From Falsochrobactrum shanghaiense (lineage in GTDB: Bacteria; Pseudomonadota; Alphaproteobacteria; Rhizobiales; Rhizobiaceae), in contig NZ_QGDB01000002.1 of the NCBI RefSeq assembly GCF_003149535.1, forward strand, positions 682,001 through 746,000: DNA of 64,000 bases. The letters run 5' to 3'. Below, piece by piece: positions 2,399 through 26,680 of this stretch (position 1 is the first letter of the stretch; every line of letters begins with the position of its first letter). The notes beneath the pieces were generated by a model. It was not told where the DNA came from. It was given only the letters and a program-made list of their open reading frames with translations, and searched no databases. Made by a program: the position numbers and the translations under genes.

Positions 2399-2430
2399 CT
2401 CCTCGTGTTATGGTCGTGGCTGGTAAGGCC
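2399..2430 (-). promoter_or_regulatory. start-associated motif plus hairpin
   Basis: On the minus strand AACACGAGGAG ends just before the VRR-NUC start. A short stem GGC/GCC with loop CTTACCA lies about 8 nt further upstream. The same loop sequence recurs in the hairpin before the Gp157-like gene. Confidence 0.6.
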
Positions 2431-2766
2431 GGTGGCGCGGAGTTAACGGGCGCCGATCTGCGCGGTATGCAGAAACAGTGAAAATGACTCCAACCGATTT
2501 AGCAAGTGTTTTTTTGGCGGATGGCGTAACCCGGCCTTTCAGGTTGTATTTTTAAAATCTCTTTTTTCCTAAAAAGCGCACACTTCTCAAATTACTAGAA
2601 CTGTGCGCTGCACGCTTTGTGCACAAGTTTCTATATAAGAACTCTTGTGCACGAAAAGCAGCGTGTATTTGCACAAGTCTTTTGGTGTTTTTTGAGAACT
2701 GTGCAAGAAGTCTTGGGCAAACTTCTAGTTGCATTTTAATTGTGACAGTCGGTTGTATTAATGGCT
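2431..2766. promoter_or_regulatory. AT-rich intergenic region with TGCACAAG repeats
   Basis: No gene is visible. The stretch is much more AT-rich than its surroundings. It holds a 9-bp inverted repeat GTGCACAAG (2619-2627) / CTTGTGCAC (2644-2652), with further related copies TGCACAAG near 2671 and TGTGCAAG near 2703. It lies after the DUF892 terminator and before the leftward VRR-NUC gene, so it probably contains a promoter with operators. An iteron-like replication region is a weaker alternative. Confidence 0.45.
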
Positions 2767-2799
2767 AAAAAAAGAGAGGAAGGTGGCGCCCTTCCTCTC
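2767..2799 (-). terminator. rho-independent terminator of the DUF892 gene
   Basis: In the minus direction a perfect 10-bp stem GAGAGGAAGG/CCTTCCTCTC with a six-base loop is followed directly by seven T. It starts 15 nt after the DUF892 stop. Confidence 0.9.
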
Positions 2800-2814
2800 G
2801 TTTGAAACAAAAAA

Positions 2815-3288
2815 TTATGCCTTGTTAATTTGGCTGATTGCCAGATTCGTGAGTTTATTATTGGCGGCTTTCTCCTGGTCTAATATCTGTGTCAGCAAGG
2901 TATGGGCTTCGGTGTGTCCAAGTTCCTTTGCCCATTCACGTAGCGAGCCATACCTAGCAATCTCGTAATGCTCCACCGCCTGACATGCGGCCAATAGACC
3001 GGCGTCGAGAGCCGTTCCGCTTGCCTCTTCCATCAAGCCATCCGCTTCCTTGATTAGCCCTTCGATAGCATCGCATTTCTCGGCGGTAGGCTTCAGCTTG
3101 AGAGACTTAAACACCTCATTCAAGATCGTGATCTGCCCCTTGGTTTCTTCAAGGTGCTCCTCGGCTGCTTTCTTCAGTTTGGCACTTTTGGCCGCTTTGG
3201 CCACTTTCGGAAGCGCCTTCGTAATGGCATTTTCTGCGTAATAAATGTCCTGCAAGGTATGCTCGAAAATATCAGACAGAGTTTTCAT
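2815..3288 (-). CDS. DUF892 / YciF-like ferritin-fold stress protein
   Basis: This 157-aa all-helical protein begins MKTLSDIFEHTLQDIYYAEN and has the acidic/His pattern of the DUF892 family (PF05974), whose members are small ferritin-like helical bundles linked to stress. AGGAGG six bases before ATG at 3288 sets the start; an upstream in-frame start is not needed. It has its own terminator and no overlap with phage genes, as expected for a moron expressed from the prophage. Whether it binds metal is unknown. Confidence 0.88.
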   Translation of the reverse strand: MKTLSDIFEHTLQDIYYAENAITKALPKVAKAAKSAKLKKAAEEHLEETKGQITILNEVFKSLKLKPTAEKCDAIEGLIKEADGLMEEASGTALDAGLLAACQAVEHYEIARYGSLREWAKELGHTEAHTLLTQILDQEKAANNKLTNLAISQINKA

Positions 3289-3660
3289 GATCGTCCTCCT
3301 GGTTGGAAAGGCGAAACGAAACAATCGCTGATATGTTCCTTATTAAAAAGCTCGCGACTTGAGCCAAGTCCTGATATTTTGGCCAAGTGATTCCGTCGAC
3401 AATGAATAACATTATCGAGGGTCGATCAGATCGAGAACGCATTTTGCCGCTTTCCTGCCCCAACCGCACGCAACAATGGTTATCTTTAGGGCCACCTCCT
3501 ATGCGGGGGCATGGTTTGAAACGGGCGAAAATCCTCACACACCATCAGAAACAGATGATGGTCAGCTCTATGCAGTTTGAGGGTAGGCTTTTGCCGCAAC
3601 AATCTGATAAATAAGACGTATTAATTGGCCTATGTTAAATAATAAAGACATCAATTGCTT
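3289..3660. other. intergenic region between divergent cargo genes
   Basis: No gene is visible. It separates the leftward DUF892 gene from a rightward membrane-protein gene and must hold a promoter for each. I see no clear operator. Confidence 0.4.
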
Positions 3661-3951
3661 ATGACACTTTACAAAAAAGCATGGCTATTTCTGATTATGG
3701 TGTCTGTTATCGTGATGACATCCCCTGACTGGACCAGAGGCATCGGTGATGTGATCGGGGTGAGCAACGTTACGATTGGATCAGTCGTTTTGGTCTTCGG
3801 CGCCCTTTTGTTCATGTTCGTATTTGTATGCCCCAAATGCTCGTTTTCACTTTTCAGAAGCGAGGGTTTTTTTGGCTTGTATATTTACCATCCATGGCCC
3901 AGCAAAGTCTGCTCCAGGTGCGGGCACAATCATTCTAGCGCTGATCGCTAG
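3661..3951 (+). CDS. small membrane protein with CxxC pairs
   Basis: The 96-aa product has two hydrophobic segments (about residues 6-20 and 33-53). They are followed by CPKC and, near the end, CSRCGH, which could form a zinc ribbon. The family is unknown. The region is AT-richer than the phage core and stands alone between the DUF892 and lipocalin genes. ATG at 3661 is preferred over a TTG two codons earlier. It shares a bidirectional terminator with the convergent lipocalin gene. Confidence 0.6.
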   Translation: MTLYKKAWLFLIMVSVIVMTSPDWTRGIGDVIGVSNVTIGSVVLVFGALLFMFVFVCPKCSFSLFRSEGFFGLYIYHPWPSKVCSRCGHNHSSADR

Positions 3952-3987
3952 AATCCGCGCCCCAAATGGTCACCTACTCCACTACAG

Positions 3988-4015
3988 CAAAAGCGGAGCC
4001 GAAGCCCCGCTTTTG
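3988..4015. terminator. bidirectional terminator
   Basis: CAAAAGCGG (3988-3996) pairs perfectly with CCGCTTTTG (4007-4015). The A- and T-rich stem ends give a usable terminator in both directions, between the convergent genes at 3661 and 4562. Confidence 0.8.
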
Positions 4016-4028
4016 TTATTCCTGGTTG

Positions 4029-4562
4029 CTAGCGTTTTTGCTCCACCCATAGAATGGAATCTGGGTCAACTCCGAGCTGCCGTGCAACGCTGATTGCCTT
4101 GGCCTTAATTTCCTTAGTCAGCGTGGGCTGACGGGACAGTACCCAGAAATACTTTTCGGGTTTGTCTCCTGCCACGATTGACCATTGGTACTTTCTATCC
4201 AGTGCGACGACGTTATAACCCCCATAAAACGGCCCGAAGAAAGAAACCTTCAAGGCGCCAACTTCTGAATCACCCGCAAATTTCGCCTTCCCTGTAGCGC
4301 TCCTGAATGAACCCTTTTGCGGGTCATACCCCGCATTAACGACCTTGATTGTTCCATCGGTGTTCATCGAATAATGAGCTGTTGTGTGGGTCATTCCTCG
4401 CTCAAACCGATTCTCGACACGTCCAAGCTCGTACCATTTTCCAAGATAACGGTCAGGATCAAAACCACTGACTGCTTGGACCTGCGGCGATCGATTGGTC
4501 GTATGGCATGCGGCCAACGCTCCTGCCAGTAAGGTAAAGGCCAGTACTGATCTCTTTTTCAT
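4029..4562 (-). CDS. blc: outer-membrane lipocalin lipoprotein (Blc-like)
   Basis: The 177-aa protein starts with a lipoprotein signal ending LAGALAAC. After it comes the lipocalin motif YLGKWYELGR with NRFERG, and later a SWIVAG-like stretch and the C-terminal helix typical of bacterial Blc. Blc binds fatty acids or lysophospholipids at the outer membrane. ATG at 4562 is preferred over a GTG three codons upstream. A host-envelope gene inside a phage early region, with its own terminator, looks like lysogenic-conversion cargo. Confidence 0.88.
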   Translation of the reverse strand: MKKRSVLAFTLLAGALAACHTTNRSPQVQAVSGFDPDRYLGKWYELGRVENRFERGMTHTTAHYSMNTDGTIKVVNAGYDPQKGSFRSATGKAKFAGDSEVGALKVSFFGPFYGGYNVVALDRKYQWSIVAGDKPEKYFWVLSRQPTLTKEIKAKAISVARQLGVDPDSILWVEQKR

Positions 4563-4648
4563 TAATACCACCAGTTAATATATCGGCATCGAGTTAAAGC
4601 TGAACTCAACATTTGGTTCCATTCCGCTGTGCTGCCGGCTGCTATGTC

Positions 4649-6886
4649 CTAACCCGCCCGCACAAACGTGGCCATCTCCCGCCGCACCGGATCCCGCTCC
4701 TCGACCTTCGCCAAGAAGCCCTCCTTGAACAGCGCCTTGGTAATGAGGCTGGCACGCTTCTTTTCTGCATCGTCGTCAAGGTCCAGGCCCAGCGCATAGG
4801 CAACCGCGCGCCCTACCCAATCCTTGGCCTGCGGAGCCTGCTTGTATGTACCGCCGTTGACTGTACCCCGTATGGCTTCTTTTTGCTCAACCGTCAGCGT
4901 GTCGGCCACCTCCTCGCTCGTCGGCCAAGCCCATGCCGTCACGACAGGCGCGTGGTCTTGCGGCTGTGTAAGCCCGCGCCCGTTGCCGAGCGCTACAGAC
5001 TCAAGTTTGCGCCAATCGGCCTTATGTGAAAGCGCAGAAAGGTTGGACTTGCCGTAGATCATGCTGAAATACGAAAAGCGGTCTGGAACTGGAAGGCCAG
5101 CCTCATTTGCCTGCGCCTCCGTCATACGATTCAGCACGCGCACCGAACGGGCCGCGCCAATCAGGGAAACCGCGCCGCGCGCATCCTCAACGGTTGCCTC
5201 GCGCCCTTCCTGCTGTTTGCGAAGGTGGTGCACAATGTCGATAGCGCAGTTGGTGTGGTCCGCGATCTGTGCCCATAACTTCGCCACCTTGTCGATGGCG
5301 CCGTTATCATTTTCATTGACCTGGTGCGTTGATACAAATGGGTCCACAATCATCACATCGATACCAAGCTCCTTGATAGCCGCCACAACGGCCTCAACGA
5401 CAGGCTCCTGTATTTTGACGCCCTTCTTATCGTCGATCGCAACTACAAGCTCCTGCTCGCGCCCGGTATCGAGGAACAGATGCCCTTCAATATCCTCCTG
5501 CTTTAAATTGAAATGGATGCACGCCGCCATGATACGGCGCTCTAACTCGTCGCGCGGGTCTTCGGCATTAAACAGCCAGACCTTCATGCGTTTGGGCGGC
5601 TTGATGCCGTTCAACGCCTTGCCGGACGCCATGGCGAGGGCCTCCACAATGCTGTTTGCCGTCTTGCCAAGGCCGCCAGGAGCGACGGTCACCGACACAT
5701 ATTTGCGTATAAAATGCTTGCCGAAAGCAAATTCACGACGCGGCAGCGTGGAGGGGTCTTTCCACTGGAACGGCGTGGCGATGATCGCGCGTTGGTGTTC
5801 TTGCTCAATGGGTTGCGTCGCATTGCTATCATCTTGAACAAGGTCGGTTTTGGTGACGGCTGTGGCGACTGCCAACGGGCTGGCGTCGCCGGGGTCTGCG
5901 TCTTGCGTCGGCGTATCTTGCGTCGCCTTGTTCCGCTCCGCTTTTGCCAACCCGTTTTCGATCATGCGGCTGATGTCTTCAAGCCGGGTGTTGTCATTAG
6001 CAGACTGCGGCACCGAACGGGGATGGCTGATTCCCGCGCGCAGACCATTGTCGATCGTTTTCACGCAGCGCGGCCAGTCCCTGGCCCACCCGCGCGCCAC
6101 GTCTTGTAGCAAGGCACGCGCTTCGGATTCCGCGAGCGCGGCAGCCCCGACGAACGTGCCCAGCCGAAACGCCGCGTCGTTCAAGCGGTTGTTGCGGTTT
6201 CCCATCGGCTCCATGGCAAGGTCGTCTAGCTCGGATTGCACTGCGCGCTCGACATAACGATCGTTGATCGTACCGGAGACAGATGGTGCCACCGTGTGGC
6301 TGTCGTAAGAACGCGGCAGCACAAGCTCTAGCAACCAGCCCGGGGCATCAGCTGGCTCCATATCGACCAGCCAACTATAGGGCTTGCCTACCATTGGAAC
6401 GCTGCCAGCCGCAATAACGTAACCGCCATCGCCGCGCACATCGATGCCAGCACCCAGAGCGCCACGATTGCGAACGCCTGCCTTGTGCTTGAAGAAATAA
6501 TGGCGGCCGCCGCTTGTGGTTTCAGCGGTTAGCGTGGCGGGCAACGGGCCGTGCTGCTCTTCCAGCGCAACCAGCGTATCCGGCCCGCCGTGCTTCGGGT
6601 CTATGTCCAGCACCCACGCGCCGATAGCCGCCCCCGTCGGCACGCCGATCATTGCACCGGGATTGCGGCGCCAGAGTTCACGAACAATGCGCTCATTCAG
6701 AGTGGCGCCGCGGAAGCCGTTGCTGGTAAGCGGTGTTTTAGTGGCTAGAATTTCCATCTCGCCAGTTTGTGGATGGACTAACTCCTCGTCGGCGGCGCGG
6801 CATGGGAATACGGGCCAGCCTCTGGCGGCATAGTCGAGGGCGACGTCGAGCATGGGGTCGGTTGTGATGGCTGGGCTAGGCTGCAA
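4649..6886 (-). CDS. phage replication protein: primase-polymerase fused to a RepA-like ATPase
   Basis: This 745-aa protein starts with a bifunctional primase/polymerase (AEP) domain: RGWPVFPC (22-29), catalytic DID (94-96) and SGGRHY (125-130). A linker with ANDN (296-299) leads to an AAA_25/RepA-type ATPase with Walker A GGLGKT (404-409) and a Walker B-like VMIVDPF. Such fusions prime and unwind at phage origins. The start appears to be TTG at 6886, because CACGAGGA lies 8 nt upstream; ATG 11 codons later is the alternative. A phage sliding clamp and helicase lie further upstream in the same operon. Confidence 0.9.
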   Translation of the reverse strand: MQPSPAITTDPMLDVALDYAARGWPVFPCRAADEELVHPQTGEMEILATKTPLTSNGFRGATLNERIVRELWRRNPGAMIGVPTGAAIGAWVLDIDPKHGGPDTLVALEEQHGPLPATLTAETTSGGRHYFFKHKAGVRNRGALGAGIDVRGDGGYVIAAGSVPMVGKPYSWLVDMEPADAPGWLLELVLPRSYDSHTVAPSVSGTINDRYVERAVQSELDDLAMEPMGNRNNRLNDAAFRLGTFVGAAALAESEARALLQDVARGWARDWPRCVKTIDNGLRAGISHPRSVPQSANDNTRLEDISRMIENGLAKAERNKATQDTPTQDADPGDASPLAVATAVTKTDLVQDDSNATQPIEQEHQRAIIATPFQWKDPSTLPRREFAFGKHFIRKYVSVTVAPGGLGKTANSIVEALAMASGKALNGIKPPKRMKVWLFNAEDPRDELERRIMAACIHFNLKQEDIEGHLFLDTGREQELVVAIDDKKGVKIQEPVVEAVVAAIKELGIDVMIVDPFVSTHQVNENDNGAIDKVAKLWAQIADHTNCAIDIVHHLRKQQEGREATVEDARGAVSLIGAARSVRVLNRMTEAQANEAGLPVPDRFSYFSMIYGKSNLSALSHKADWRKLESVALGNGRGLTQPQDHAPVVTAWAWPTSEEVADTLTVEQKEAIRGTVNGGTYKQAPQAKDWVGRAVAYALGLDLDDDAEKKRASLITKALFKEGFLAKVEERDPVRREMATFVRAG

Positions 6887-6945
6887 TTGCGTTATCCTCG
6901 TGTGTGGTAGTGGTGTGGCTGTTTAAATGTCGGTACGTGATACAA

Positions 6946-7257
6946 TCAGAACGGTGCCTCCGCTAAAGCCGCACGCATCCCCCGCCCGCACCCTTCCCAC
7001 GCGGCTTTCACCAGCATGCGTGCCTCTAGCTCATCCATGTCGGCAAGGTCGGTCTTTTGGATGGACTGCAAGTATTCCCCAACCGCCTCGACGCCTGTAT
7101 CAAGCGCGCGAAGTTCGTACGGGTCCAACCGACGCCGATGCCTGATATGTTCGGCAATGTCGCCGCATTCCTTGCATAGCCAGCGGATGGGTTCGCGGCC
7201 TTCCTGCACCCCCAGGCCTACGGCATGGCGGGCGCAGACGTGGCAGATGTCGGTCAT
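6946..7257 (-). CDS. small zinc-finger phage protein (DUF6511-like)
   Basis: The 103-aa protein begins MTDICHVCARHAVG and has two CxxC pairs (CHVC, CKEC), suggesting one zinc site, then an acidic helical C-terminus. It resembles small phage proteins grouped as DUF6511; its role is unknown. The start at 7257 overlaps the methyltransferase stop by ATGA. A longer N-terminal extension in the same frame would run inside that gene and is rejected. Confidence 0.72.
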   Translation of the reverse strand: MTDICHVCARHAVGLGVQEGREPIRWLCKECGDIAEHIRHRRRLDPYELRALDTGVEAVGEYLQSIQKTDLADMDELEARMLVKAAWEGCGRGMRAALAEAPF

Positions 7258-8642
7258 GCGGCGCTCCTGAAATTGTCGTTGGCTGGCGCATGCATCTTGA
7301 GCATGCCCGTTGGCACATTCGTGCCGGCTTCTGCAAAAGACGCCACCGGCAGATCGCGCCATTCGCCTTTCAATTCGCCATGATCGTAATGAGCGGTGGC
7401 GGGGAGGATAGACACGAGCGTGCCGCCAGGTTTTAGGAACTTCAAAGCATGGCGAACGTGCTTGACATAGTGCCGCCCATAGAAAGGCGGGTTCATCACC
7501 ACTGTGTCGAACTCTGGAGCAGCAGGCTGTTCGAGAAAATTTGCCGTCAGGACATTGTGCCCCTTAGCCCTCGCTTGCGCCGCCCTGCCCGCATGGTATT
7601 CGATGCCGAAGACATGATGTCCACGAGCGCGGATAGCATCCATGATCCGGCCGTCGCCGCATGACGGCTCCAGAATATTCGACGGCTCCGGTGGATTGTG
7701 CCGCCATTCCGTCAGGTTATAAACACCGGCGAACTCCAGCGCCCGGTCAATAACTGCGTCTGGCGTCCAGTAGAATTGCAGGTCTTTGGAAACTGCCGTG
7801 CTGGCGCGGGGCTTGGCGTCATCCTCCTCGGCGTCGGGCAGCACGTCGCCGTAGAACTCGGCCAGAGCCATATTGATGTCGCGCTGTGCGTCTGGCCCGA
7901 AATACAGATGGCCGTTGCCATTCGCGTAGCGTTTCAGCCAAACATCGCGCCCGATGATGGTTTCTGTTTCGTCACTGCCTGCGCGCTGACGTGCTGTGTT
8001 GCCCTTCGGCACTTCTCTGGTTACGCGCAGTGTGTCGCCGTCTTCCAAGATCAGCGACAGCTCATGATACTCAATCAGCGGTTTGCCTTGATAGGCTGCC
8101 AGCGCATTCAGAACGTCGCGCAGGCGGTCGCGGCCATACCCATGAATACTGCCAAGTCCTGATATAATCACACGCTTGGGCAGGCCCTTCACGCCAATCT
8201 TGACCTTGCTATGAGACTTGTAAGCCGGATCCAGATCGGCAAAGACCTCGGCAAGTCCGCGCAGAATGTGCGAGCGCGGATTCTCCAAGTATGGCCCGAA
8301 CGTCGCCTTGGCATTGTCAAAGGTCAGCTCTGGCGGGTCAGCCAGCGTGCGCTCGAATAGCTTCTTGTCCTTGGCGCTGGCGATGCGGTCGATCTGGCAG
8401 CGGTTATAGAGCGTCTTCCAACCAGACGCGCGCAGGTTCTTGCGCATCTCATTGGCAGACACGTGCGCGCGCCCACGCAGGACGGGATTGACGTATGTGC
8501 CCATGATCGTGCCTGCCATCTCGACGGCGATGCAGGCGCCCTCATACGCCTTGATGGCAGCGTCGACGTTATCGATCTTGCGCTCGTACTCGTCGATAAT
8601 GTCGAGGACTGTGCTTTGGCGCGCAGGTGCGTTGTAGGTCAT
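7254..8642 (-). CDS. DUF4942-methyltransferase fusion
   Basis: The N-terminal half matches DUF4942-type phage proteins. The C-terminal half is a class I SAM methyltransferase: ILEPSCGDGRIMDAI is the SAM motif and VVMNPPFYG the NPPF catalytic motif of amino-methylases. N6-adenine methylation of phage DNA, as protection from restriction, is the likely role. At 462 aa it appears complete. It ends with ANDNFRSAA, an ssrA-like tail. It is coupled to the genes on both sides by ATGA overlaps. Confidence 0.85.
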   Translation of the reverse strand: MTYNAPARQSTVLDIIDEYERKIDNVDAAIKAYEGACIAVEMAGTIMGTYVNPVLRGRAHVSANEMRKNLRASGWKTLYNRCQIDRIASAKDKKLFERTLADPPELTFDNAKATFGPYLENPRSHILRGLAEVFADLDPAYKSHSKVKIGVKGLPKRVIISGLGSIHGYGRDRLRDVLNALAAYQGKPLIEYHELSLILEDGDTLRVTREVPKGNTARQRAGSDETETIIGRDVWLKRYANGNGHLYFGPDAQRDINMALAEFYGDVLPDAEEDDAKPRASTAVSKDLQFYWTPDAVIDRALEFAGVYNLTEWRHNPPEPSNILEPSCGDGRIMDAIRARGHHVFGIEYHAGRAAQARAKGHNVLTANFLEQPAAPEFDTVVMNPPFYGRHYVKHVRHALKFLKPGGTLVSILPATAHYDHGELKGEWRDLPVASFAEAGTNVPTGMLKMHAPANDNFRSAA

Positions 8643-9235
8643 GCTGCCACCCTCCCTAACATATCCTGATTGTCATTAGCCGCTGCTGAAATAGCCGCCA
8701 CATACTTCCCCGTTTCATTCCCCCACGCCGACCAACCCGGCCACGCTTGGCGTGCGAACAGTTCAAGGTACGGGCCGTCGACCAGCGCTTCTATGCGCGC
8801 GTATTGCTCGTCTGGCTTGCGGGAGTGCTCCCGCCTAGGCGCACGGATTAGCTGCCGAACGCCTTTGCTCTTGCGCTTGGGACGACCCCGCTTGAACAGG
8901 TGGCAGATTTCGACTTCCTGCCGGGTCCAGTAGCCCATGCCCATCCGGCCTTTATCCCAGACGAGCGCCACAGAGACAGGCTGGAATCCCCACGCAGCCG
9001 CCACGTCAAACGCAGCGGCTTGAAGATGTGAAACCGTCCACATGAACAGCAAGCAGTCCTTGGCCGCGACGTCTGCAACAGGCAAGGCTTTGATGTCATC
9101 CAGCGACATAACCGCGTAGGGTTGCTTGCCCCGCGCTGGCGCAACATTATCATTCGCGTAGGTTCTGAATGACCATGGCGGGTCGGCTAAGATACAGCCG
9201 TATTGGCCGCTCGGTAGCGGTTCATTCATCATCAT
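8639..9235 (-). CDS. MT-A70 family adenine methyltransferase
   Basis: The 198-aa protein opens with YGCILADPPWSF, where DPPW is the catalytic motif of MT-A70 N6-adenine methylases, and has the C-terminal GNETGKYV segment. It makes a second adenine methylase next to the NPPF enzyme. ANDN occurs twice, near residue 27 and 13 residues from the end. Three ATG codons run in a row. AACACGAGGAG is only 3 nt from the first but 6 or 9 nt from the next two, so the true start may be 9232 or 9229. Confidence 0.9.
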   Translation of the reverse strand: MMMNEPLPSGQYGCILADPPWSFRTYANDNVAPARGKQPYAVMSLDDIKALPVADVAAKDCLLFMWTVSHLQAAAFDVAAAWGFQPVSVALVWDKGRMGMGYWTRQEVEICHLFKRGRPKRKSKGVRQLIRAPRREHSRKPDEQYARIEALVDGPYLELFARQAWPGWSAWGNETGKYVAAISAAANDNQDMLGRVAA

Positions 9236-9238
9236 AAT

Positions 9239-9284
9239 CTCCTCGTGTTTCGTGGTGGTAACCTGCCAGTTGGTGGCTGGCGGG
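9239..9284 (-). promoter_or_regulatory. start-associated motif plus hairpin
   Basis: AACACGAGGAG precedes the MT-A70 start. Upstream, CCTGCCAG (9262-9269) pairs with CTGGCGGG (9277-9284) over eight positions with one wobble. Confidence 0.65.
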
Positions 9285-9290
9285 GTGTTG

Positions 9291-9428
9291 TTACTGAAAT
9301 GGCCAGTAGGGCGGCTGGCTACTGATGCATTGACCGCAGAAATAGTCGGCCAAATAAAGCGGGCCGTAAGTAAGCGCCACGGCGAGCAGTATATGGCGCG
9401 GGCGAATTTTCGCTAAGATTGCAAACAC
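9291..9428 (-). CDS. small membrane-associated peptide (45 aa)
   Basis: A GTG start at 9428 overlaps the end of the 65-aa gene, and AAAGGA lies about 7 nt upstream. The translation starts MFAILAKIRPRHILLAVA and then gives a hydrophobic segment, a CGQC pair and a short polar tail. The composition looks protein-like and it fills an otherwise empty 177-nt gap. The family is unknown; a thiol or metal role for CGQC is only a guess. Confidence 0.5.
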   Translation of the reverse strand: MFAILAKIRPRHILLAVALTYGPLYLADYFCGQCISSQPPYWPFQ

Positions 9429-9610
9429 GCCGCCATCCTTTCGCCGCCGCCTTGCTGCACAGCAGCAATTGGGCGGGTAAGGTCAGGAAACCAGTCGTCG
9501 TAGGTGGCGACGTCGATCATTGCTTCTTGCAGAGAGTACATGTCATTGATGTACGCGTCATAGTTTGGCTCATACTCGTACGTGGCCATTAGCCATGCGC
9601 ATCCACCCAT
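9413..9610 (-). CDS. small acidic phage protein (65 aa)
   Basis: No family is recognised. It is rich in Tyr, Asp and Glu (ATYEYEPNYDAYINDMYS). The ATG at 9610 overlaps the Gp157 stop as TGATG, so it is translationally coupled; a later ATG (MATYEYEP) is possible. Confidence 0.6.
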   Translation of the reverse strand: MGGCAWLMATYEYEPNYDAYINDMYSLQEAMIDVATYDDWFPDLTRPIAAVQQGGGERMAACLQS

Positions 9611-10143
9611 CACGCCGCCCTCACCGTAATTGTTTCGGCACCGACGCGCAGCGCTGCACCCGGCACATCTTCGCCAGCATCCAGCGCGGCCTTAATGGCT
9701 GTCTTATCGGGCTCACGCTTCAACTTAACAACGTTATCGGGCAGCAGGCTTTCGTCCATAATCTCAACCCCGGCGCGACCCTTGCCTATCGACACGGTTG
9801 CTTCCGGCAGACTAACCTTGTTCAGGTCGGCGGCTTTCAGCAGCCGCAACAGCAGCGCACGCATGGCGTCCTTGCGTCTGGCGTAGCGATCCTTTCGCGC
9901 GGCCAAGTCCTTGGCGCGCTCGCCAATCGCTTGCACCATCGCGTTTGCATCGCGCTCGATTGCCACGATGCGCCCAAGCACACGGTGCGCGTCGGTTTCA
10001 CCCTCGATCATGTCGGCGCGCAGTTCTTCGTCTTCGGCCAGTTCGGGGTATGCCGCAACCAAGTCGGCAAACTCCCGTTCCAGCACCGTGACGTCATAGG
10101 CTAGGTAGTTCTGTACTTTCGTGTTGTCAGCTTTGTTCTGCAT
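9610..10143 (-). CDS. Siphovirus Gp157-like protein
   Basis: The 177-aa protein has a long central coiled coil rich in Glu, Arg and Lys, followed by the basic and strand-rich tail (VSIGKGRAGVEIMDESLLP) of the Gp157 family (PF05565). In Streptococcus thermophilus phages this family is linked to phage resistance and replication. The C-terminus is VRAA, whose codons sit in the overlap with the next start. The start is set by AACACGAGGAG. Confidence 0.82.
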   Translation of the reverse strand: MQNKADNTKVQNYLAYDVTVLEREFADLVAAYPELAEDEELRADMIEGETDAHRVLGRIVAIERDANAMVQAIGERAKDLAARKDRYARRKDAMRALLLRLLKAADLNKVSLPEATVSIGKGRAGVEIMDESLLPDNVVKLKREPDKTAIKAALDAGEDVPGAALRVGAETITVRAA

Positions 10144-10148
10144 GATTG

Positions 10149-10189
10149 CTCCTCGTGTTTTTTGGTGTAAAGCGGCTGGTAAGGCCGCT
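10149..10189 (-). promoter_or_regulatory. start-associated motif plus hairpin
   Basis: AACACGAGGAG precedes the Gp157-like start. Upstream a perfect 6-bp stem AGCGGC/GCCGCT holds the loop CTTACCA (minus-strand reading), almost the same loop as before dnaN (CTCACCA). Confidence 0.7.
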
Positions 10190-10197
10190 GCTAGTGG

Positions 10198-11373: not shown

Positions 11374-11459
11374 ATGATTCTCCTCGTGTTTTGGATGGTT
11401 GGTTGGGCAGTCCGGTATGCACTCTAACACGCCTCGCAGCCGTTACTGTTAATGGGGTG

Positions 11460-16305: not shown

Positions 16306-16349
16306 CTCCTCGTGTTCGGCAGTGGTAGGCGCGGTGGTGAGCCGCGCCT
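16306..16349 (-). promoter_or_regulatory. start-associated motif plus strong hairpin
   Basis: AACACGAGGAG precedes dnaN. Ten bases upstream a perfect 8-bp stem AGGCGCGG/CCGCGCCT holds the seven-base loop CTCACCA (minus-strand reading). No T-run follows, so it is not a terminator. Confidence 0.75.
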
Positions 16350-17406: not shown

Positions 17407-17462
17407 CTCCTCGTGTTCGGTTCGGTGCGATGGTTGCTACCGGCGCTTTCGCGCCAGTAGCA
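17407..17462 (-). promoter_or_regulatory. start-associated motif plus long hairpin
   Basis: AACACGAGGAG precedes the nucleotidyltransferase. Upstream, a 12-bp stem (17435-17446 with 17451-17462, one wobble) closes a GAAA tetraloop in the transcript. It is the strongest of the series and has no T-run. Confidence 0.78.
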
Positions 17463-18023: not shown

Positions 18024-18050
18024 AGGTATTCCTCGTGTTTGTGGTGGTGG

Positions 18051-18221
18051 TTAGAACGGTGAAGGAAAGAAGCCGCCTGCAATGAGCAGCCATGTTGTGA
18101 GGCCGACGGCAATGAGTGACGACCAGATGCTGTAATTTGGTCGTGGCTTTCCGTGCATCGCTGCTGACGCGCCAAAACCAGTGGCCATCAGAACCAGCAT
18201 GACTATCTGTGGCCACCCCAT
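18051..18221 (-). CDS. small two-segment membrane protein (56 aa)
   Basis: The ATG at 18221 overlaps the Sak4 stop as TGATG. The product starts MGWPQIVMLVLMATGFGASA, has a short loop (HGKPRPNYS) and a second hydrophobic segment ending GGFFPSPF. Small proteins of this plan are common in rhizobial prophages; function is unknown, and a holin-like role is unlikely in this early operon. Confidence 0.72.
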   Translation of the reverse strand: MGWPQIVMLVLMATGFGASAAMHGKPRPNYSIWSSLIAVGLTTWLLIAGGFFPSPF

Positions 18222-19009: not shown

Positions 19010-19023
19010 CGTGCTCTCCTTTT

Positions 19024-19110
19024 TTAGATGATAGCCAGTATGAAGATGGTGACGAGGAACAGCACGGTTCCTGCCAGCGCGTACCCGCTGGGGTCTGGGC
19101 CGGCTGTCAT
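19024..19110 (-). CDS. 28-residue single-span membrane peptide
   Basis: The ATG at 19110 overlaps the previous stop as TGATG. The peptide is a polar start (MTAGPDPSG) and one hydrophobic helix ending FILAII. It is the third membrane peptide in a row. Confidence 0.5.
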   Translation of the reverse strand: MTAGPDPSGYALAGTVLFLVTIFILAII

Positions 19111-19364
19111 CACCCACCCCACAGATAAAGCAGCCCATAAAAGGGCAGAATGCCGTTCCAGAACACGACGCCCATGGCGACGAAGGCGAGCACCAAGGCA
19201 AGGGCAGCGTGCGCCAGCGACCGGCCTACGCGCCCCCCGCCGGGGATGCGTCCGGGTTGGATTAGGATGCGGTCGTCCTCGACGCGGTATTTGCTCCATG
19301 GGCTGTTGCGGCGTGTGTTGCCGGGGCGGTCGTTGACGGCGTAGTCTTTGTAGGGGTTAATCAT
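19110..19364 (-). CDS. small membrane protein (84 aa)
   Basis: It has a basic, polar N-terminal half (MINPYKDYAVNDRPG...) and two C-terminal hydrophobic helices ending LYLWGG. The ATG at 19364 overlaps the upstream gene by 8 nt. Function is unknown. Confidence 0.68.
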   Translation of the reverse strand: MINPYKDYAVNDRPGNTRRNSPWSKYRVEDDRILIQPGRIPGGGRVGRSLAHAALALVLAFVAMGVVFWNGILPFYGLLYLWGG

Positions 19365-19641
19365 GGCTCACCTCCAACTGATCCAGCTTGGCGCGGGCCT
19401 GCGGGATGCTGTAGCTGCGGCCGACATTGGTGGCCTTGGCCGAGATCGTGATAAACGCGATAATCGCGCCTACCCATTGCAACGCTACGCTCTGCAATAG
19501 GACACCAATACCTATGAGCGCAGCGAACAAGATAAATGTGCTTGCATCGCGCATCCACGACTTGAGCACCGTTTCGTGCACAATAATGACTTCGGGCTTC
19601 GACGTGGCTCTGCCGCCGCCCTCGTTGGGTTCTCTAAACAT
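19357..19641 (-). CDS. small membrane protein (94 aa)
   Basis: A polar N-terminus is followed by two hydrophobic segments (about 35-50 and 54-67) and a basic C-terminal helix. The family is unknown. The start is fixed by AACGAGGAGG, a variant of the phage start motif, with a CCCCGC/GCGGGG hairpin (19656-19677) just upstream. Confidence 0.7.
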   Translation of the reverse strand: MFREPNEGGGRATSKPEVIIVHETVLKSWMRDASTFILFAALIGIGVLLQSVALQWVGAIIAFITISAKATNVGRSYSIPQARAKLDQLEVSHD

Positions 19642-19709
19642 AATTCCTCCTCGTTCCCCGCCGCGAATGCAGCGGGGCTGGTAGGGTTGGCTGTGGTTGC
19701 TGTTGCGGG

Positions 19710-20597
19710 TTAGGCGGCGACTAGCTTGCTAGTTGCGATGATGACGGGCTGGTTGCCTCCGGTGTCAACAAATGACCATTTGTCGAACCGTGCCAGTTCA
19801 TAGCCGTATCCCCGATGCGTCTTGACGAAGCGGACCTTAGTCACCGTAGGGGGCGTGGGGTCTACCGTATTCTCCAGCCACGATTTTGTTGCGTCTGCAA
19901 CAACGCCCATGAGGTCGTCAAACGCTGACGAAACATTATCGTTATCGTTGCTGGCGGCTTCCTGTGAGGCAACCTGTGGCTCGTCGGCCCATTCGGCGAT
20001 GAGGTCGGCGCTGGTTTCCATAGTGCTATTGGCTCGCCCATCGCACCACCAGTCCGCCCCGTTATGCGTCGCGCGGTCTGCTGTCGTACGCATCGGCCCT
20101 ACCTTGCGCCCGTCGCGGGTGCGGTAGTATTTTCCTGATTGGATGCTGAGGACCGGCTCAATGCAGTCAGGCTTTGCACGTGTGTACTGGGGCTCCACAG
20201 ACAACGTCTGATAGTTATATGGTGGGTCTATATTCAGCAGGTATTCGCCGTTGTTCATGAGCTTGCCGTCCCACGATTCAATCGTAGCCAGTTTTCCAAC
20301 CGCGCCTATGGTGGATTTGCCGTCCTTTACCAATCGCACCCGGTCGCCGACCTTGAAGCGCGGTTCGTCGGACACGGCCCATTCACCGGTGTCCAAAGGA
20401 TAGGCTTCACCTGCATCATCAGTAATGATCACGCAGTTCCCACATGCGCCAGAAACGACATATTCTTTACCCGCGACAACATCCATTTCAGTCACAAGGC
20501 TTTTGACCCTATCCCCGACCTTCACGCGTCTTGCGCCCTTGCCGTATTCATCAGCCTGCACATCGACCTGCGCAGCTTCCATTGTTCGCGTGACCAT
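19710..20597 (-). CDS. KOW/SH3-like repeat protein (295 aa)
   Basis: Two segments, RRVKVGDRVKSL and RFKVGDRVRLV, look like small beta-barrel (KOW or SH3-like) repeats. A cysteine pair (CGNC) lies between them and a low-complexity SNDNDN stretch follows. It ends LVAA. The function is unknown; nucleic-acid or protein binding by the barrels is a guess. It overlaps the upstream gene by one base. Confidence 0.7.
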   Translation of the reverse strand: MVTRTMEAAQVDVQADEYGKGARRVKVGDRVKSLVTEMDVVAGKEYVVSGACGNCVIITDDAGEAYPLDTGEWAVSDEPRFKVGDRVRLVKDGKSTIGAVGKLATIESWDGKLMNNGEYLLNIDPPYNYQTLSVEPQYTRAKPDCIEPVLSIQSGKYYRTRDGRKVGPMRTTADRATHNGADWWCDGRANSTMETSADLIAEWADEPQVASQEAASNDNDNVSSAFDDLMGVVADATKSWLENTVDPTPPTVTKVRFVKTHRGYGYELARFDKWSFVDTGGNQPVIIATSKLVAA

Positions 20598-20896
20598 TAG
20601 GCGGCTCCCCTCGTTTTTGTTTTCGCCGTCAGCTTCACCTTCTTTGTGAAATCGACCGGAATGATGTTGTCTTCTGGTTCGGCTTGGCTACCACCCCCGC
20701 CGTCTTCATCATCAAACGGCTCGACTTCAAACCGCGATACTTCGGCGGCAACCAGCCCTTGGCCGGGGACTAAAAATCGCACAGTCAGCATCCTGCCAGC
20801 GTCACGGTCGCCAATGATGACGCCAAGCCAGCCTGTCAGCCGGTGGCGTACAAATTCGCCGGGCAAGTCCCAGCAATCTCCACAATCGCAGGTCAT
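20597..20896 (-). CDS. small phage protein with N-terminal cysteines (99 aa)
   Basis: MTCDCGDCWDLPGEFVRH has a CxCxxC cluster, then a beta-rich part (LTVRFLVPGQGLVAAEV) and an acidic, then basic, tail ending RGAA. It might be a small zinc-binding barrel protein like its downstream neighbour; no family is recognised. ATGA overlap with the upstream gene. Confidence 0.68.
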   Translation of the reverse strand: MTCDCGDCWDLPGEFVRHRLTGWLGVIIGDRDAGRMLTVRFLVPGQGLVAAEVSRFEVEPFDDEDGGGGSQAEPEDNIIPVDFTKKVKLTAKTKTRGAA

Positions 20897-21096
20897 GCCG
20901 CACCTCTTTTCTGTCTGCTGTAGCTAACCGGCGAGCCGGACACATAGCGCCCGTCAACCAAGCGCGCTGTGCGCCGGGCGTCTTCTTTCTGCGCAGCGGT
21001 GCGATAAGGCTTGCGGTTTGTCATGTCCCGCGTGCCAGTTCGTGTGTACTGCGTTTGGTGCGCCGTTTCCGGTCGCGTGTATTTATGGGATTTCAT
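20893..21096 (-). CDS. small basic phage protein (67 aa)
   Basis: Very rich in Arg, Lys, Thr and Tyr (KPYRTAAQKEDARRTARLVDG), as in small nucleic-acid-binding proteins; ends KRGAA. The start MKSHKYTRP is preceded by GGAGGAA. Function unknown. Confidence 0.62.
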   Translation of the reverse strand: MKSHKYTRPETAHQTQYTRTGTRDMTNRKPYRTAAQKEDARRTARLVDGRYVSGSPVSYSRQKRGAA

Positions 21097-21162
21097 AGTT
21101 CCTCCATGCTGGAGGTTAATCTTCGGCCCCGTTCCCTAGGCGGTCGGCCCTGCCTTAAAAGG

Positions 21163-21471
21163 CTAGTGGACGGTGGCTGTGCCTGCGCTAGCAGGGGCGC
21201 CGATAAAAGGCCCGTCCAGTAAGGTAATGCGCGGCATTGCGATATACATGTCGCGGCATAATGTTGAGCATCCACCGTTATGCGTGGAGCGTTTAACAAC
21301 CGTGCTTTCTGTCGGCGTTGGCGGCGGTAGTGCGGGCACTCTGTCTGCGAGCAGAGACCAAGCGTGGCCTCTGGTAATGCCCATCATTTCCGCGATCTTC
21401 CCGAATGACGCACCTTTTTTACGATGCGCGGCGGCTTTCGCCTGCAATTCCTGTCGTGGTGAATACTGCAT
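21163..21471 (-). CDS. probable helix-turn-helix protein (102 aa)
   Basis: MQYSPRQELQAKAAAHRKKGASFGKIAEMMG followed by TRGHAWSLL is a plausible HTH (resolvase/sigma-like), then a variable C-terminus. ATG at 21471 is fixed by AACACGAGGAG five bases upstream. The frame stays open for 137 more codons upstream, but that part crosses the hairpin and motif and is probably not translated. Possibly an early regulator. Confidence 0.62.
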   Translation of the reverse strand: MQYSPRQELQAKAAAHRKKGASFGKIAEMMGITRGHAWSLLADRVPALPPPTPTESTVVKRSTHNGGCSTLCRDMYIAMPRITLLDGPFIGAPASAGTATVH

Positions 21472-21473
21472 AA

Positions 21474-21523
21474 CTCCTCGTGTTTGGTTGGTGGTGGTTG
21501 ACAAATGCCGCGACTGGCGGCAT
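21474..21523 (-). promoter_or_regulatory. start-associated motif plus hairpin
   Basis: AACACGAGGAG precedes the HTH gene; a perfect 7-bp stem ATGCCGC (21505-21511) / GCGGCAT (21517-21523) with a five-base loop lies upstream. Confidence 0.72.
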
Positions 21524-21733
21524 CTGTCTGGCTGGCTGGGGTGGTACCCGGCAAGGAACGGGAGGGTTGGAGTTTTACTCCTCGTGGCCCGAACTAGTAC
21601 GGGCAGGCTGGCGAAGGGTGGTACCGGAGCATAACAGCCTGCTTTTTGTTTGGCGTGGCATCTGGCGCAGGGCGTTTCCTCGTGTTTGGTCACATGCCAG
21701 ATCATGCGTTCTGCAGGTGAGGCAGAATGGGGG
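21524..21733 (-). other. gap with two orphan start-associated motifs
   Basis: CACGAGGAG (21578-21586) and AACACGAGGAA (21676-21686) occur here, read leftward, without a clear gene after them. A frame beginning MIWHVTKHEETPCARC (start near 21704) contains a CxxC and runs through both motifs in frame with the HTH gene. Two GGTGGTACC copies flank the middle. The stretch could be a decayed small gene or a tiny zinc-ribbon gene. Confidence 0.4.
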
Positions 21734-23767: not shown

Positions 23768-23834
23768 GTGTCGTGTTGGCGACCATTGGCCCTCTATAAG
23801 ACGGCCTTTTCACCAAAACCGACCACCACGACAC
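23768..23834 (+). repeat. long inverted repeat up to a ribosome site
   Basis: GTGTCGTGTTGG (23768-23779) pairs with CCACCACGACAC (23823-23834) at 11 of 12 positions. The right arm ends next to GAGGAG of the 40-aa gene, so the fold could limit access to that ribosome site, or the element may be an operator. Confidence 0.55.
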
Positions 23835-23849
23835 GAGGAGGCAAAGCAC

Positions 23850-23972
23850 ATGAAAAAGATTATCGAACGTCTGGTTCACGTACGCGCCTATGTTCGCTTA
23901 CGGTTCGGGAAGATTGAGTATGTCCGGGAGCACACACGCTCTTGGCCCAATCAATTATCCTTCGAGTTCTAA
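23850..23972 (+). CDS. small basic peptide (40 aa)
   Basis: ATG at 23850 follows GACACGAGGAGG, a copy of the phage start motif, at good spacing. The peptide (MKKIIERLVHVRAYVRLRFG...) is basic and amphipathic and ends QLSFEF. It lies between the two ParB-like genes' promoter side and the CI switch, facing right. Function unknown. Confidence 0.6.
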   Translation: MKKIIERLVHVRAYVRLRFGKIEYVREHTRSWPNQLSFEF

Positions 23973-24106: not shown

Positions 24107-24254
24107 TGTGTTTCTCCTCGTGTTTTCTAGCTGGTCAGTCTTGGGGCTAATTAAATCTTCAGGCTAGCTATCTGTCCGGCTTTGGTAACTCCGGCTTCTG
24201 CATATTGGCCTCCTTTTCGGTTGGCACCGTCTTTCTGTGGGGCGGTATGGAGTT

Positions 24255-25016: not shown

Positions 25017-25078
25017 CCCCTTGCCCTTATGGCCGCAACTTGGCAGGGTGGCATCGTAGCAATCATAAGGGGGTGTAA

Positions 25079-25291
25079 ATGGCATTGCCGGATAATATTG
25101 CTTTAGAAAAACGTACTCAGGTCGCGTTTGTTGCGCAGCAACATATGATATTTTCGCTGTACTCAATAGCTTTAACGCGCGGTCTAATCCAAAAATCGGA
25201 CTTGGACCGCGTTTCTGAAGTTATTGACGATGAAGATGTGAAATCATTTATCAACGCCACCTTGGAGCCACTTAAGAAGGCTGGCAATTAA
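25079..25291 (+). CDS. small helical protein (70 aa)
   Basis: AAGGGGG lies 5 nt before ATG. The protein is helical, mildly acidic in the second half, with no known family. It is downstream of cI and ahead of a terminator, so it is probably co-expressed with the repressor during lysogeny. Confidence 0.65.
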   Translation: MALPDNIALEKRTQVAFVAQQHMIFSLYSIALTRGLIQKSDLDRVSEVIDDEDVKSFINATLEPLKKAGN

Positions 25292-25334
25292 TTCATCGCT
25301 GGTTTCGCGTAAGCGATCCCAGAAATCTTCTGAA

Positions 25335-25363
25335 AGCGGTTCATACTCATGGACCGCTTTTTT
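25335..25363 (+). terminator. rho-independent terminator of the cI unit
   Basis: AGCGGT pairs with ACCGCT, with a further CAT/ATG pairing inside the loop, followed by six T (25358-25363). It ends the cI transcript. Confidence 0.85.
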
Positions 25364-25563
25364 GTTGCCATTTCTCTGCACCCCGATTCTCCTTTTATCC
25401 GCCCATCTATTGCTGGCAGCAACAAGTATGCCCTATCACCACCACCCTTGCTACTTTTTATTGTTGACTATCGCTACTTTCTTCGCTACTACTCTTCTCA
25501 ACAGCACGAAGACAGCCACGCGGCCCGATCTGCTGACAGACCAAAACACGAGGAGACTTCAAC

Positions 25564-25857
25564 ATGAGCGACACACCAAAGAGAAGAAGACCGTTCACCC
25601 GCAAAAACGAAATTATCGGCGGCGGATTCTTTGTATTTCGCCGCGGCAAGAAGACTGGCCGCATAGGCCGCACCAAGTTCCCATACGAACACGGCTCGTT
25701 TGCGTCTGCGATGGCAGAAGCGACGCGCCTAGCAGCCCTGTGCCCCGGCGAGACGTTCGAAGTTTTCCAGACGAGCGGCGCTGTAGCGCGAGGCGAGCCG
25801 GTAGATGCGCCTGCACCGGCTGAATTGGCCGAGATCTCCGTAAAGGAGGCAGCGTGA
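25564..25857 (+). CDS. basic phage protein (97 aa)
   Basis: The N-terminal half is basic and glycine-rich (MSDTPKRRRPFTRKNEIIGGGFFVFRRGKK), the C-terminal half Ala/Pro/Glu-rich ending KEAA. The start follows AACACGAGGAG. Its end provides the ribosome site for the winged-helix gene (AAGGAGGCAGCGTGATG). Function unknown. Confidence 0.72.
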   Translation: MSDTPKRRRPFTRKNEIIGGGFFVFRRGKKTGRIGRTKFPYEHGSFASAMAEATRLAALCPGETFEVFQTSGAVARGEPVDAPAPAELAEISVKEAA

Positions 25858-26195
25858 TGAAGCGGAACCCCACAGAAGAACTTGCGAACATCCCGCTGTC
25901 GCGCGGACAAAAGAACATAGTCGATGCATTGGCAGCGATCTACCCGCGCCGCATGCATATCTTCGATCTCGTCAACCACGTCTATGCGCTAGACCCGAAT
26001 GGCGGTCCAGATAACGCCATGGGATCAGTGCGCACACAAATTTGCAACATCCGGAAGCGCCTGCCCGGCTTTGGCTGGACGATCCCAAAGACGTTCGACG
26101 TGCAAGGTCAGCATGGATGGTATCGACTGGAACCAGTCGCAAACGACAACACCTCGGCGAGCGAACAACAGGCAAGTGTAGGGAGGGCAGCATGA
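25857..26195 (+). CDS. OmpR-type winged-helix DNA-binding protein
   Basis: The 112-aa protein is a single trans_reg_C-like winged helix: PLSRGQKNIVDALAAIYPRR, HIFDLVNHVYAL, then VRTQICNIRKRLPGFGW as recognition helix and wing. There is no receiver domain. Stand-alone phage versions probably regulate transcription. ANDN and GRAA are in the tail. The start overlaps the previous stop (TGATG), with AAGGAGG 7 nt upstream. Confidence 0.8.
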   Translation: MKRNPTEELANIPLSRGQKNIVDALAAIYPRRMHIFDLVNHVYALDPNGGPDNAMGSVRTQICNIRKRLPGFGWTIPKTFDVQGQHGWYRLEPVANDNTSASEQQASVGRAA

Positions 26196-26458
26196 TGGCC
26201 CGCTGCAATCACAGCAACCGCTACACCCACGACCTTATCCCAGAGCGCGAATTTGACACAGAAGTCCTCGTTGACGACGTACGCAGCACAGCGCGTGCTG
26301 GCAGTGTAGAGCCAATGCGCCGCCCTGATTACCGCGCCAAGAAACACGCAAAGCCCCAACCGTGGATAAGATACGCACTGCGCGAAGCCGTTGAAATGAC
26401 AGTCGTTGTCGCTTTCTGCGTGGCTGTGTGCGCCGTAGCTGTGGGGGTGGCGGCGTGA
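26192..26458 (+). CDS. small protein with C-terminal membrane helix (88 aa)
   Basis: A polar, His/Arg-rich N-terminus (MMARCNHSNRYTHD) is followed by one hydrophobic helix at the end (VVVAFCVAVCAVAVGVAA). ATGA overlap with the winged-helix gene. Function unknown. Confidence 0.62.
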   Translation: MMARCNHSNRYTHDLIPEREFDTEVLVDDVRSTARAGSVEPMRRPDYRAKKHAKPQPWIRYALREAVEMTVVVAFCVAVCAVAVGVAA

Positions 26459-26598
26459 TCAGGGTTGCCATAGCCACCGACGCGCTGCGGACGATTTTTG
26501 CACGTAGCAACAACGACCCGCTTGGCACCAGCAAAGTCAACGATATGCGCCGAATTGCGGAAGAAGCGCTGGCAAGGCTGGGCGAGCACGGAAGATAG
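26455..26598 (+). CDS. small phage protein (47 aa)
   Basis: A GTG start overlaps the previous stop (GTGA). The product is MIRVAIATDALRTIFARS... ending ARLGEHGR, soluble and helical. Support comes from coupling and filling the gap. Confidence 0.45.
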   Translation: MIRVAIATDALRTIFARSNNDPLGTSKVNDMRRIAEEALARLGEHGR

Positions 26599-26680
26599 CG
26601 ACGGGGCGGCAAAGCCCCCCCCATACCCCTCTTTTTTGCGCGCTCACCAAGCGCACCACCCCGACCATGAGGAGATTTTT

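Follow-up and report, generated by a model that had tools for sequence, protein, structure and literature searches.

A Shine-Dalgarno-containing motif before early genes of a Falsochrobactrum prophage, probably part of a composite RNA module for translation initiation

Motif copies at the starts of early prophage genes

The DNA analyzed here is a stretch of 64,000 nucleotides (nt) of the Falsochrobactrum shanghaiense genome (contig NZ_QGDB01000002.1, positions 682,001 to 746,000; the window), which carries part of a prophage in which the motif AACACGAGGAG, AACAC followed by the Shine-Dalgarno (SD) hexamer GAGGAG, recurs shortly before gene starts. Exact copies on the minus strand lie at 2399..2409, 5 nt from the ATG of a 177-amino-acid (aa) nuclease gene (1860-2393, assigned to VRR-NUC in a preliminary description of this DNA); at 9239..9249, 3 nt from the ATG of a DNA methyltransferase gene (8639-9235, there MT-A70); at 10149..10159, 5 nt from the ATG of a 177-aa Mu Gam-like gene (9610-10143, there Gp157-like); at 11380..11390, 6 nt from the ATG of RtcB (10198-11373); at 16306..16316, 6 nt from the ATG of a phage dnaN (15250-16299); at 17407..17417, 6 nt from the ATG of a 278-aa gene (16564-17400) with a weak nucleotidyltransferase match; at 21474..21484, 2 nt from the ATG of a 102-aa helix-turn-helix (HTH) gene (21163-21471); and at 24114..24124, 7 nt from a 17-codon open reading frame (ORF). 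Changed copies on the same strand precede the ATG of the DUF669 gene 17475-18023 (AACACGAGGAA, one change, 18029..18039, 5 nt), the TTG of the primase/polymerase gene 4649-6886 (CACACGAGGAT, two changes, 6894..6904, 7 nt) and, as a marginal copy, the ATG of a 295-aa gene (AAAACGAGGGG, two changes, 20607..20617, 9 nt). On the plus strand an exact copy at 25545..25555 stands 8 nt before a 97-aa ORF (25564-25857), GACACGAGGAG (one change, 23830..23840) 9 nt before a 40-aa ORF (23850-23972) and ACCATGAGGAG (two changes, 26664..26674) 6 nt before a 99-aa ORF. The preliminary description had placed a copy 3-9 nt before 14 named genes; 13 of the 14 do have one with at most two changes before the start, while the leader of the 94-aa gene (19357-19641) holds GGAACGAGGAG, with three changes, and the spacing of the 102-aa gene falls below the range. 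Two minus-strand copies without the usual start were absent from that list: GCCACGAGGAG (two changes, 21578-21588), inside a structured RNA at 21499..21657, and a further AACACGAGGAA (21676-21686), enclosed by a hairpin ATCTGGC...GCCAGAT recognized by eye at 21660..21702.

Across the whole window there are nine exact copies against 0.03 expected, and none of 100 dinucleotide shuffles contained nine or more. With at most one change the count is 12 against 0.75 expected. With at most two it is 20 against 12.0, a number that 2 of 100 shuffles reach and that is weak alone; because this raw count barely exceeds chance, two-change copies were judged by their position only. In the complete genome of 3.84 Mb the exact motif occurs 14 times: 11 copies belong to this prophage (two of them to the left of the window) and three lie elsewhere. 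The reversed control pattern occurs once. Of the three copies outside, one lies in a stretch that by eye looks like a second prophage family, one in a host-like region 9 nt before an ATG, and one within an 875-aa ORF. At G000:C1:294404-294414 (L001, L019) a motif copy has a CTCACCA-containing hairpin just 5' of it and no start; from its similarity to the upstream region of the second prophage family, it is likely a remnant element.

When at most one change is allowed, 82 of the 792 genes called in nine related prophage loci have a motif copy before them and the 388 host genes in 400 kb of the same host have none; with at most two changes, a single host gene has one (1/388). The motif is thus not equally frequent before host genes, in line with the phage association first proposed, and it is restricted to phage regions. 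To call it phage-wide was too broad, as no copy precedes the virion genes of the window's prophage: from about -23.6 kb to +1.8 kb no called gene has a copy with at most two changes, and all eight genes tested there match tail, head or packaging families. In the nine loci, 93 of the 105 occurrences of AACAC (at most one change) joined to GAGGAG are followed at 2-12 nt by the start of an ORF no shorter than 40 aa, compared with 49 of 163 GAGGAG copies without such an AACAC. The 74 exact copies with a start show a spacing of 2-9 nt, which is 5-6 nt in 48, and the starts behind motif copies are ATG in 103 and TTG in 6 of 109 cases. For nine motif genes of the window's prophage the gap to the preceding gene could be measured, and in eight it is 48 nt or more, while 33 of 72 other genes begin within 10 nt of the gene before; here the motif mostly marks genes that start after an intergenic gap, not by overlap. 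Gene starts were set by a simple purpose-written caller and not taken from curated annotation. Since this caller favours SD-like starts in every class, per-gene counts can be off; the Gam-like gene, for instance, was missed.

A protein search with the phage dnaN returned seven loci, the five closest in Brucella pseudintermedia, B. daejeonensis, two Ochrobactrum records and Falsochrobactrum ovis. In the host genus, which is Brucella in the GTDB sense and includes Ochrobactrum, 26 of 35 genomes contain exact motif copies, many of which cluster on one contig stretch among the places listed. In a sample of 297 genomes of the family, counts outside the host genus resemble, by eye, those of the reversed control. 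Among 80 viral loci selected by RtcB homology, exact copies were found in L041 (6) and L053 (1) only, so that RtcB homology alone is a poor guide to the element.

Leader hairpins, ACCA words and a structured RNA

The AACAC part had been described as conserved beyond what pairing with 16S rRNA needs. This stands within the lineage, and it is lineage-specific. All 24 distinct dnaN leaders of the lineage keep CAC, and the two preceding A's are kept in 20 and 23; of 13 positions further 5', eleven are kept in 12-19 leaders and two in 22 and 24. The four positions 3' of GAGGAG are likewise kept in 22-24 of the 24, a sign of close kinship that limits the test. No pairing of AACAC with the 16S 3' end was seen by eye. 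In other lineages GAGGAG is present in 30 of 32 dnaN leaders (the two without GAGGA were left out of position counts) and is preceded by A/C-rich words other than AACAC, such as CACCACAAGAGGAG.

Read 5' to 3', the full element consists of an optional hairpin with a stem of 5-10 base pairs (bp) and a loop of about 7 nt containing ACCA, an A/C-rich linker with ACCA words, AACACGAGGAG, a spacer of 2-9 nt and ATG. In the window, minus-strand hairpins of this type are GCCAG-CCACCAA-CTGGC in the methyltransferase leader (9265..9281), AGCGGC-CTTACCA-GCCGCT in the leader of the Gam-like gene (10171..10189) and AGGCGCGG-CTCACCA-CCGCGCCT in the dnaN leader (16327..16349), whose orthologues swap the stem and keep the pairing. 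In 69 non-redundant leaders of 32 nt, ACCA occurs 134 times against 25.1 +/- 4.7 in composition shuffles (z 23). These leaders have a C content of 0.41 and a G content of 0.17, shifting to 0.46 and 0.09 in the last 12 nt. Among 51 distinct perfect hairpins found in the 100 nt before the 82 motif genes, the loop contains ACCA in 19 and TGGT in none; for other phage genes the numbers are 3 and 10 of 271, and for host genes an ACCA loop occurs in 1 of 190. A genome-wide ranking of hairpin loops was uninformative, since most hairpins fall in coding sequence.

The dnaN leaders allow the hairpin to be followed over a wider range. Homologues were taken from IMG/VR by protein profile alone, giving 80 loci, of which 77 matched from the first residues. 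Their 56 distinct leaders of 80 nt include 38 with an ACCA-loop hairpin of at least 6 bp, built from 16 different 5' arms, where shuffled leaders give a mean of 0.2 and a maximum of 2 over 50 rounds. The stem is GGCGCGG/CCGCGCC in the present lineage, and GCGCCGG/CCGGCGC, TGCCTGCCG/CGGCAGGCA, CCCGCACGG/CCGTGCGGG or TGCCGGATGG/CCATCCGGCA in others, with loops such as CTCACCA or CCACCAA. A MAFFT alignment of dnaN leaders (A4) misplaces the hairpins and was excluded from pair counts, and a further alignment (A6) was set aside for one wrong row (L145). Exceptions are the dnaN leaders of G003, G013 and G020, which have a TTGCCAG loop, and that of G005, which has no such hairpin. Methyltransferase leaders carry the hairpin in 8 of 10 cases. 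The ACCA words are more general than the hairpin: ACCAC or ACCAA occurs 3.26 times per DUF669 leader against 0.47 in shuffles and 1.09 times per Sak4-like leader against 0.12. For the helicase and Cas4-like genes, neither of which has a motif copy in the window, the leaders give 0.21 against 0.19 and 0.28 against 0.10, no excess or a slight one. The predicted accessibility of the SD region is 0.58 for motif genes, 0.42 for other phage genes and 0.47 for host genes (80 sampled per class). In L423 and L434 dnaN has a GAAA-tetraloop hairpin leader otherwise found before the nucleotidyltransferase-like gene, and from these sequences leaders appear to move between genes.

The structured RNA at 21499..21657, about 150 nt long with covarying hairpins, lies upstream of the 102-aa HTH gene or its counterpart. 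A startless intergenic motif copy is found there in all nine prophage loci, with two changes in the window and at most one in the other eight, and the RNA recurs in L121, L125, L126, L132, L135, L136, L139 and L145. In 21 sequences (19 distinct), 92.6% of cells at 33 predicted pairs are paired, against 81.4% when shuffled and 40-53% when slid, a percentage that leans towards structure because the structure was derived from the same alignment. Covariation is 0.323 against 0.148 in shuffles, a value reached in 0 of 500. CACCAC and TACCAC words occupy the loops of two of the hairpins, and the motif copy leads into a third. A covariance model of this RNA (R1) finds it in 19 of 35 host-genus genomes, with seven more divergent matches in the second prophage family (L275-L277, L292-L295), where other genes lie behind it. 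In the family sample R1 matches 7 of 199 genomes; the three outside the genus (G137, G150, G169) are weak, and only G137 is convincing by eye. Among 26 of the 80 RtcB-selected viral loci R1 gave one chance-level match. Rfam 15 returned five matches over window positions 1-32000, three of them tRNAs and the other two sub-threshold matches that overlie a single tRNA gene; at the gathering score or E <=1 there was none at the structured RNA and none in L142 or L145. The upstream hairpin encloses another motif copy in 6 of 36 loci viewed, and in L170, L283 and L290 the GGA of the enclosed copy is changed while AAACACGA is kept. The structured RNA could be a regulated leader, or a decoy for a factor that acts on the element.

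Reach among Rhizobiales phages and candidate partner proteins

To gauge the reach of the element, ACCAC and ACCAA words were counted in 70-nt leaders and compared with shuffles. They are in excess in phage 16-3 (28 against 9.3), AP-16-3 (31 against 9.9), RHph_TM3_3_14B (23 against 7.8) and NV1.1.1 (24 against 7.5), and these four together with RHph_X2_25 carry 3-5 ACCA-loop hairpins each. An excess is also seen in the viral loci L042, L043, L044 and L047. Phage 16-3 and its kin keep the linker and hairpin and have other A/C-rich words in place of AACAC. The Aurantimonas phage AmM-1 (5 against 4.8) and the Rhizobium phage RR1-A (5 against 6.2) stand at chance level with one hairpin each; both carry distant dnaN genes. 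RHph_X2_26, a relative by its primase, helicase, VRR-NUC and other genes, has no word in 59 leaders of its early stretch, where 6.5 would be expected, nor any reverse complement word; the rest of its genome has three words in 32 leaders (3.9 expected) and two in 27 (2.6 expected), and its leaders are plain AGGAG. X2_25 and X2_26 are both recorded from Sinorhizobium americanum, and because X2_26 does without the element, the host ribosome seems not to demand it. L051 was dropped as a further element-free case, its 7 words against 2.9 +/- 1.6 being unclear and its match to the gene cassette described below weak (E 0.005). In L046 the words are at chance (5 against 4.4), and the 21 kb examined hold no cassette match.

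Three adjacent minus-strand early genes behind the structured RNA travel with the element: the HTH gene (21163..21471), which is the first of the cassette, a 99-aa gene (20597..20896) with a predicted SH3/KOW-type barrel and the 295-aa gene (19710..20597) with predicted tandem KOW-like barrels. Homologues of all three occur in the five element-bearing GenBank phages. The other prophage loci have the HTH and 99-aa genes in 8 of 8 cases and the 295-aa gene in 5 of 8; L043 and L044 have all three, and L042 and L047 show the parts that their ends cover. No match better than E 0.009 was found for the cassette in the whole genome of X2_26, and none better than E 0.04 in the parts of AmM-1 and RR1-A examined. 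Among 16 host-genus genomes, 8 of 8 with the prophage and 0 of 8 without motif copies encode the 99-aa protein, a split that arises because the protein travels with the prophage. The model of this protein is a five-stranded barrel with blocks at pLDDT (predicted local distance difference test) 81-88 over residues 11-60, whose best fold match is NusG, weak at E 8.6e-3, followed by a Lon specificity factor at E 9.1e-3. The tandem barrels modelled for the 295-aa protein best match the KOW regions of Spt5/DSIF (E 2.6e-6, template-modelling (TM) score ~0.2). Pfam gave no match above cut-off in either protein of the window. In relatives of the 295-aa protein the L7/L12 C-terminal domain (PF00542) scores 27.0 bits in X2_25 (cut-off 25.9), and 25.3 in NV1.1.1 and 18.1 in TM3, both below cut-off; it is absent at E <=1 from the proteins of 16-3 and the window. 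Early phage proteins in which KVGDRV-type (KOW-like) repeats are joined to a ribosomal L7/L12 C-terminal-like domain are encoded at L297:13515-14651, L298:13013-14155 and L502:1389-2552. Owing to their co-occurrence with the element, which is not proof, the two KOW-like proteins are the best partner candidates. The cassette proteins of these phages mostly end in ...AA, which may follow from the overlap of the SD and start of the next gene; a degradation-tag effect is possible.

Other candidate partners were set aside. The DUF6511 protein (6946-7257, minus strand) is found in the element-bearing phages compared and also in the element-free X2_26, and so is not sufficient; it has two CxxC pairs, and DUF6511 occurs in 7 of 50,697 phage records, all of Rhizobium or Sinorhizobium phages. 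A 128-aa gene (-267 to 119) seemed tied to the element when partial sequences were compared, but has a clear homologue in X2_26 (44%, E 1.4e-28). For dnaN none was found in X2_26, but it is present in the element-free AmM-1 and RR1-A.

Interpretation and relation to known systems

We suggest, with a probability of about 0.6, that the motif is the SD end of a composite RNA module for translation initiation at early genes (replication, recombination and regulatory) of Rhizobiales temperate phages. A module acting in RNA at translation starts is indicated because the SD register is fixed, the element lies in the sense orientation of its gene, stems are replaced while the loop is kept, and the SD is more open. 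It would raise or gate ribosome loading at the marked starts. The conservation of the loop and linker words argues that a reader exists, and because the element is missing from a relative that has the same host species, this trans-acting factor is probably phage-encoded. By co-occurrence, the KOW-like proteins encoded just behind the structured RNA would be the best reader candidates, and the structured RNA itself may act as a gate. A fuller scheme, which we hold to be unlikely as a whole, is a translation-start system of the phage's own, in which KOW-like proteins, fused in some phages to an L7/L12-type domain, would recognize the ACCA-loop hairpins and the linkers of early mRNA leaders and recruit ribosomes or initiation factors to the starts, the motif-bearing structured RNA tuning the supply of the factor.

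Several observations weigh against the composite module. Outside the lineage, across 30 dnaN leaders, the commonest base at each of the offsets -5 to -1 reaches at most 53%, although the stretch stays A/C-rich, and of 119 copies that differ by one change at most, 10 are not followed by a start. Many leaders lack the hairpin: within the window it was seen before only three motif genes, and it is found in 2 of 73 DUF669, 0 of 9 RtcB, 1 of 13 VRR-NUC and 0 of 43 Sak4-like leaders. By the rule used, 18 of the 56 dnaN leaders have no ACCA-loop hairpin; in five of these the same stem carries a GCCA loop, and in two a GAAA loop. The GenBank start of the 16-3 dnaN lies 60 nt upstream of the one used here, which would put the hairpin in the coding region; for AP-16-3 the annotated start is the one used. 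The gain in accessibility is modest, 0.58 against 0.51 in the leaders' own shuffles, as is the word excess of RHph_X2_25 (16 against 8.4 +/- 2.5). As to the partner proteins, co-occurrence rests on three element-free phages, two of which (AmM-1 and RR1-A) were covered only partly; at the threshold used, G008, G021 and the Falsochrobactrum stretch gave no match to the 295-aa gene; the models behind the KOW assignments are of modest quality (mean pLDDT 67 and 73); and no known fold matches the 99-aa protein at E <=0.001.

The plainest alternative is an ordinary strong SD in an unstructured A/C-rich leader, spread by descent and leader swapping and used by the host ribosome alone with no special factor. 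That GAGGAG is the part common to all lineages, that the SD region is more open and that leaders can move between genes, as in the dnaN genes of L423 and L434, would all fit such an account. We nevertheless think it improbable, given an excess of ACCA words far beyond composition, a loop sequence kept while the stems change, a CAC invariant within the lineage, and X2_26, which does without the element in the same host species. A nut- or Rho-type transcription element, in which a hairpin and a C-rich word in nascent RNA would act with KOW-like proteins to keep the polymerase going or stop it across untranslated gaps, appears still less likely. The C-rich, G-poor leaders, the gaps of at least 48 nt before eight of nine motif genes and the top fold matches (NusG, weak, for the 99-aa protein and Spt5 KOW domains for the 295-aa protein) all suit it, but antitermination needs neither a fixed register to the start nor fusion to an SD, and here the element is repeated before many single genes. 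A site acting in DNA, whether an operator or other transcription-factor site as considered in the preliminary description, a promoter part or a recombination boundary between gene modules, is very improbable even though copies lie at gene borders, leader swaps are seen and, in the available text of PMC11373665, the extended start-associated sequence of cluster K mycobacteriophages is reported to contain putative promoters, since the motif is not palindromic, keeps a fixed register to the start and the gene-sense orientation at counted starts, is accompanied by promoter-like sites at chance level (13 against 11.7 in 1800-21700), and has hairpin stems that change with pairing kept, which points to RNA.

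Small hairpins combined with a linear word in RNA are also known from nut sites (boxA/boxB), where, as with NusG/LoaP/RfaH-type proteins, control runs through RNA or KOW domains. The likeness extends to the KOW-like proteins, here phage-encoded; the difference is that the present element is coupled to the SD and the start at many genes. The stoperators of cluster A phages are many copies of a short asymmetric site and act in transcription regulation. The present element resembles them in its many short asymmetric copies across a phage genome, and differs in overlapping the SD. Cluster A stoperators are named in the available part of PMC3203893.

The closest counterpart is the start-associated sequence (SAS) of cluster K, to which the preliminary description had aptly likened the motif. 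As described in the available text of PMC3203893, the SAS lies a few bases before starts, contains AGGAG, favours ATG and is confined to non-structural genes, with a 13-bp consensus GGGATAGGAGCCC. Both are short asymmetric AGGAG repeats before many early non-structural genes and rare in the host, with a second upstream element in part of the genes and a few startless copies. Spacing (about 3-9 bp there), preference for ATG and confinement to non-structural genes of the window's prophage agree. The sequences do not, as AACACGAGGAG shares only AGGAG with the cluster K consensus, and the host phylum differs. The extended SAS (ESAS) of cluster K is a 17-bp imperfect inverted repeat whose changes, according to its authors in the part of the work available, do not support RNA pairing; here the stems vary with pairing kept and it is the ACCA loop that is conserved. 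Because sequence and inverted repeat both disagree, we file the element as analogous to, not a member of, the cluster K SAS, and by this analogy its way of working may be similar. The role of the SAS is called unknown or ill-defined in the available parts of cluster K papers (PMC3203893, PMC12699233, PMC11373665), one of which, a survey of 188 phages (PMC12699233), covers these sequences. No description of the present element was found in the literature searched, from which subscription papers on phage 16-3 may be missing. The element would be a second, unrelated start-associated case, with clear RNA covariation, many phages and a natural pair with and without it from one host species, which together with named candidate partners makes the question directly testable. 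If a phage factor reads it, the virus would encode the choice of which mRNAs the bacterial ribosome starts on.

Some further features were noted. An integrase gene and an adjoining tRNA-His gene lie at 30143-31729, the tRNA gene being the probable attachment site, and tRNA-Met and tRNA-Pro genes lie at 91-248. In 16-3-type phages, TTGACAAATTTGTAAAA-like repeats occur upstream of several genes (L043, L044, L047, L296, L297 and, 5' of RtcB, L299) and could be promoters with repressor operators.

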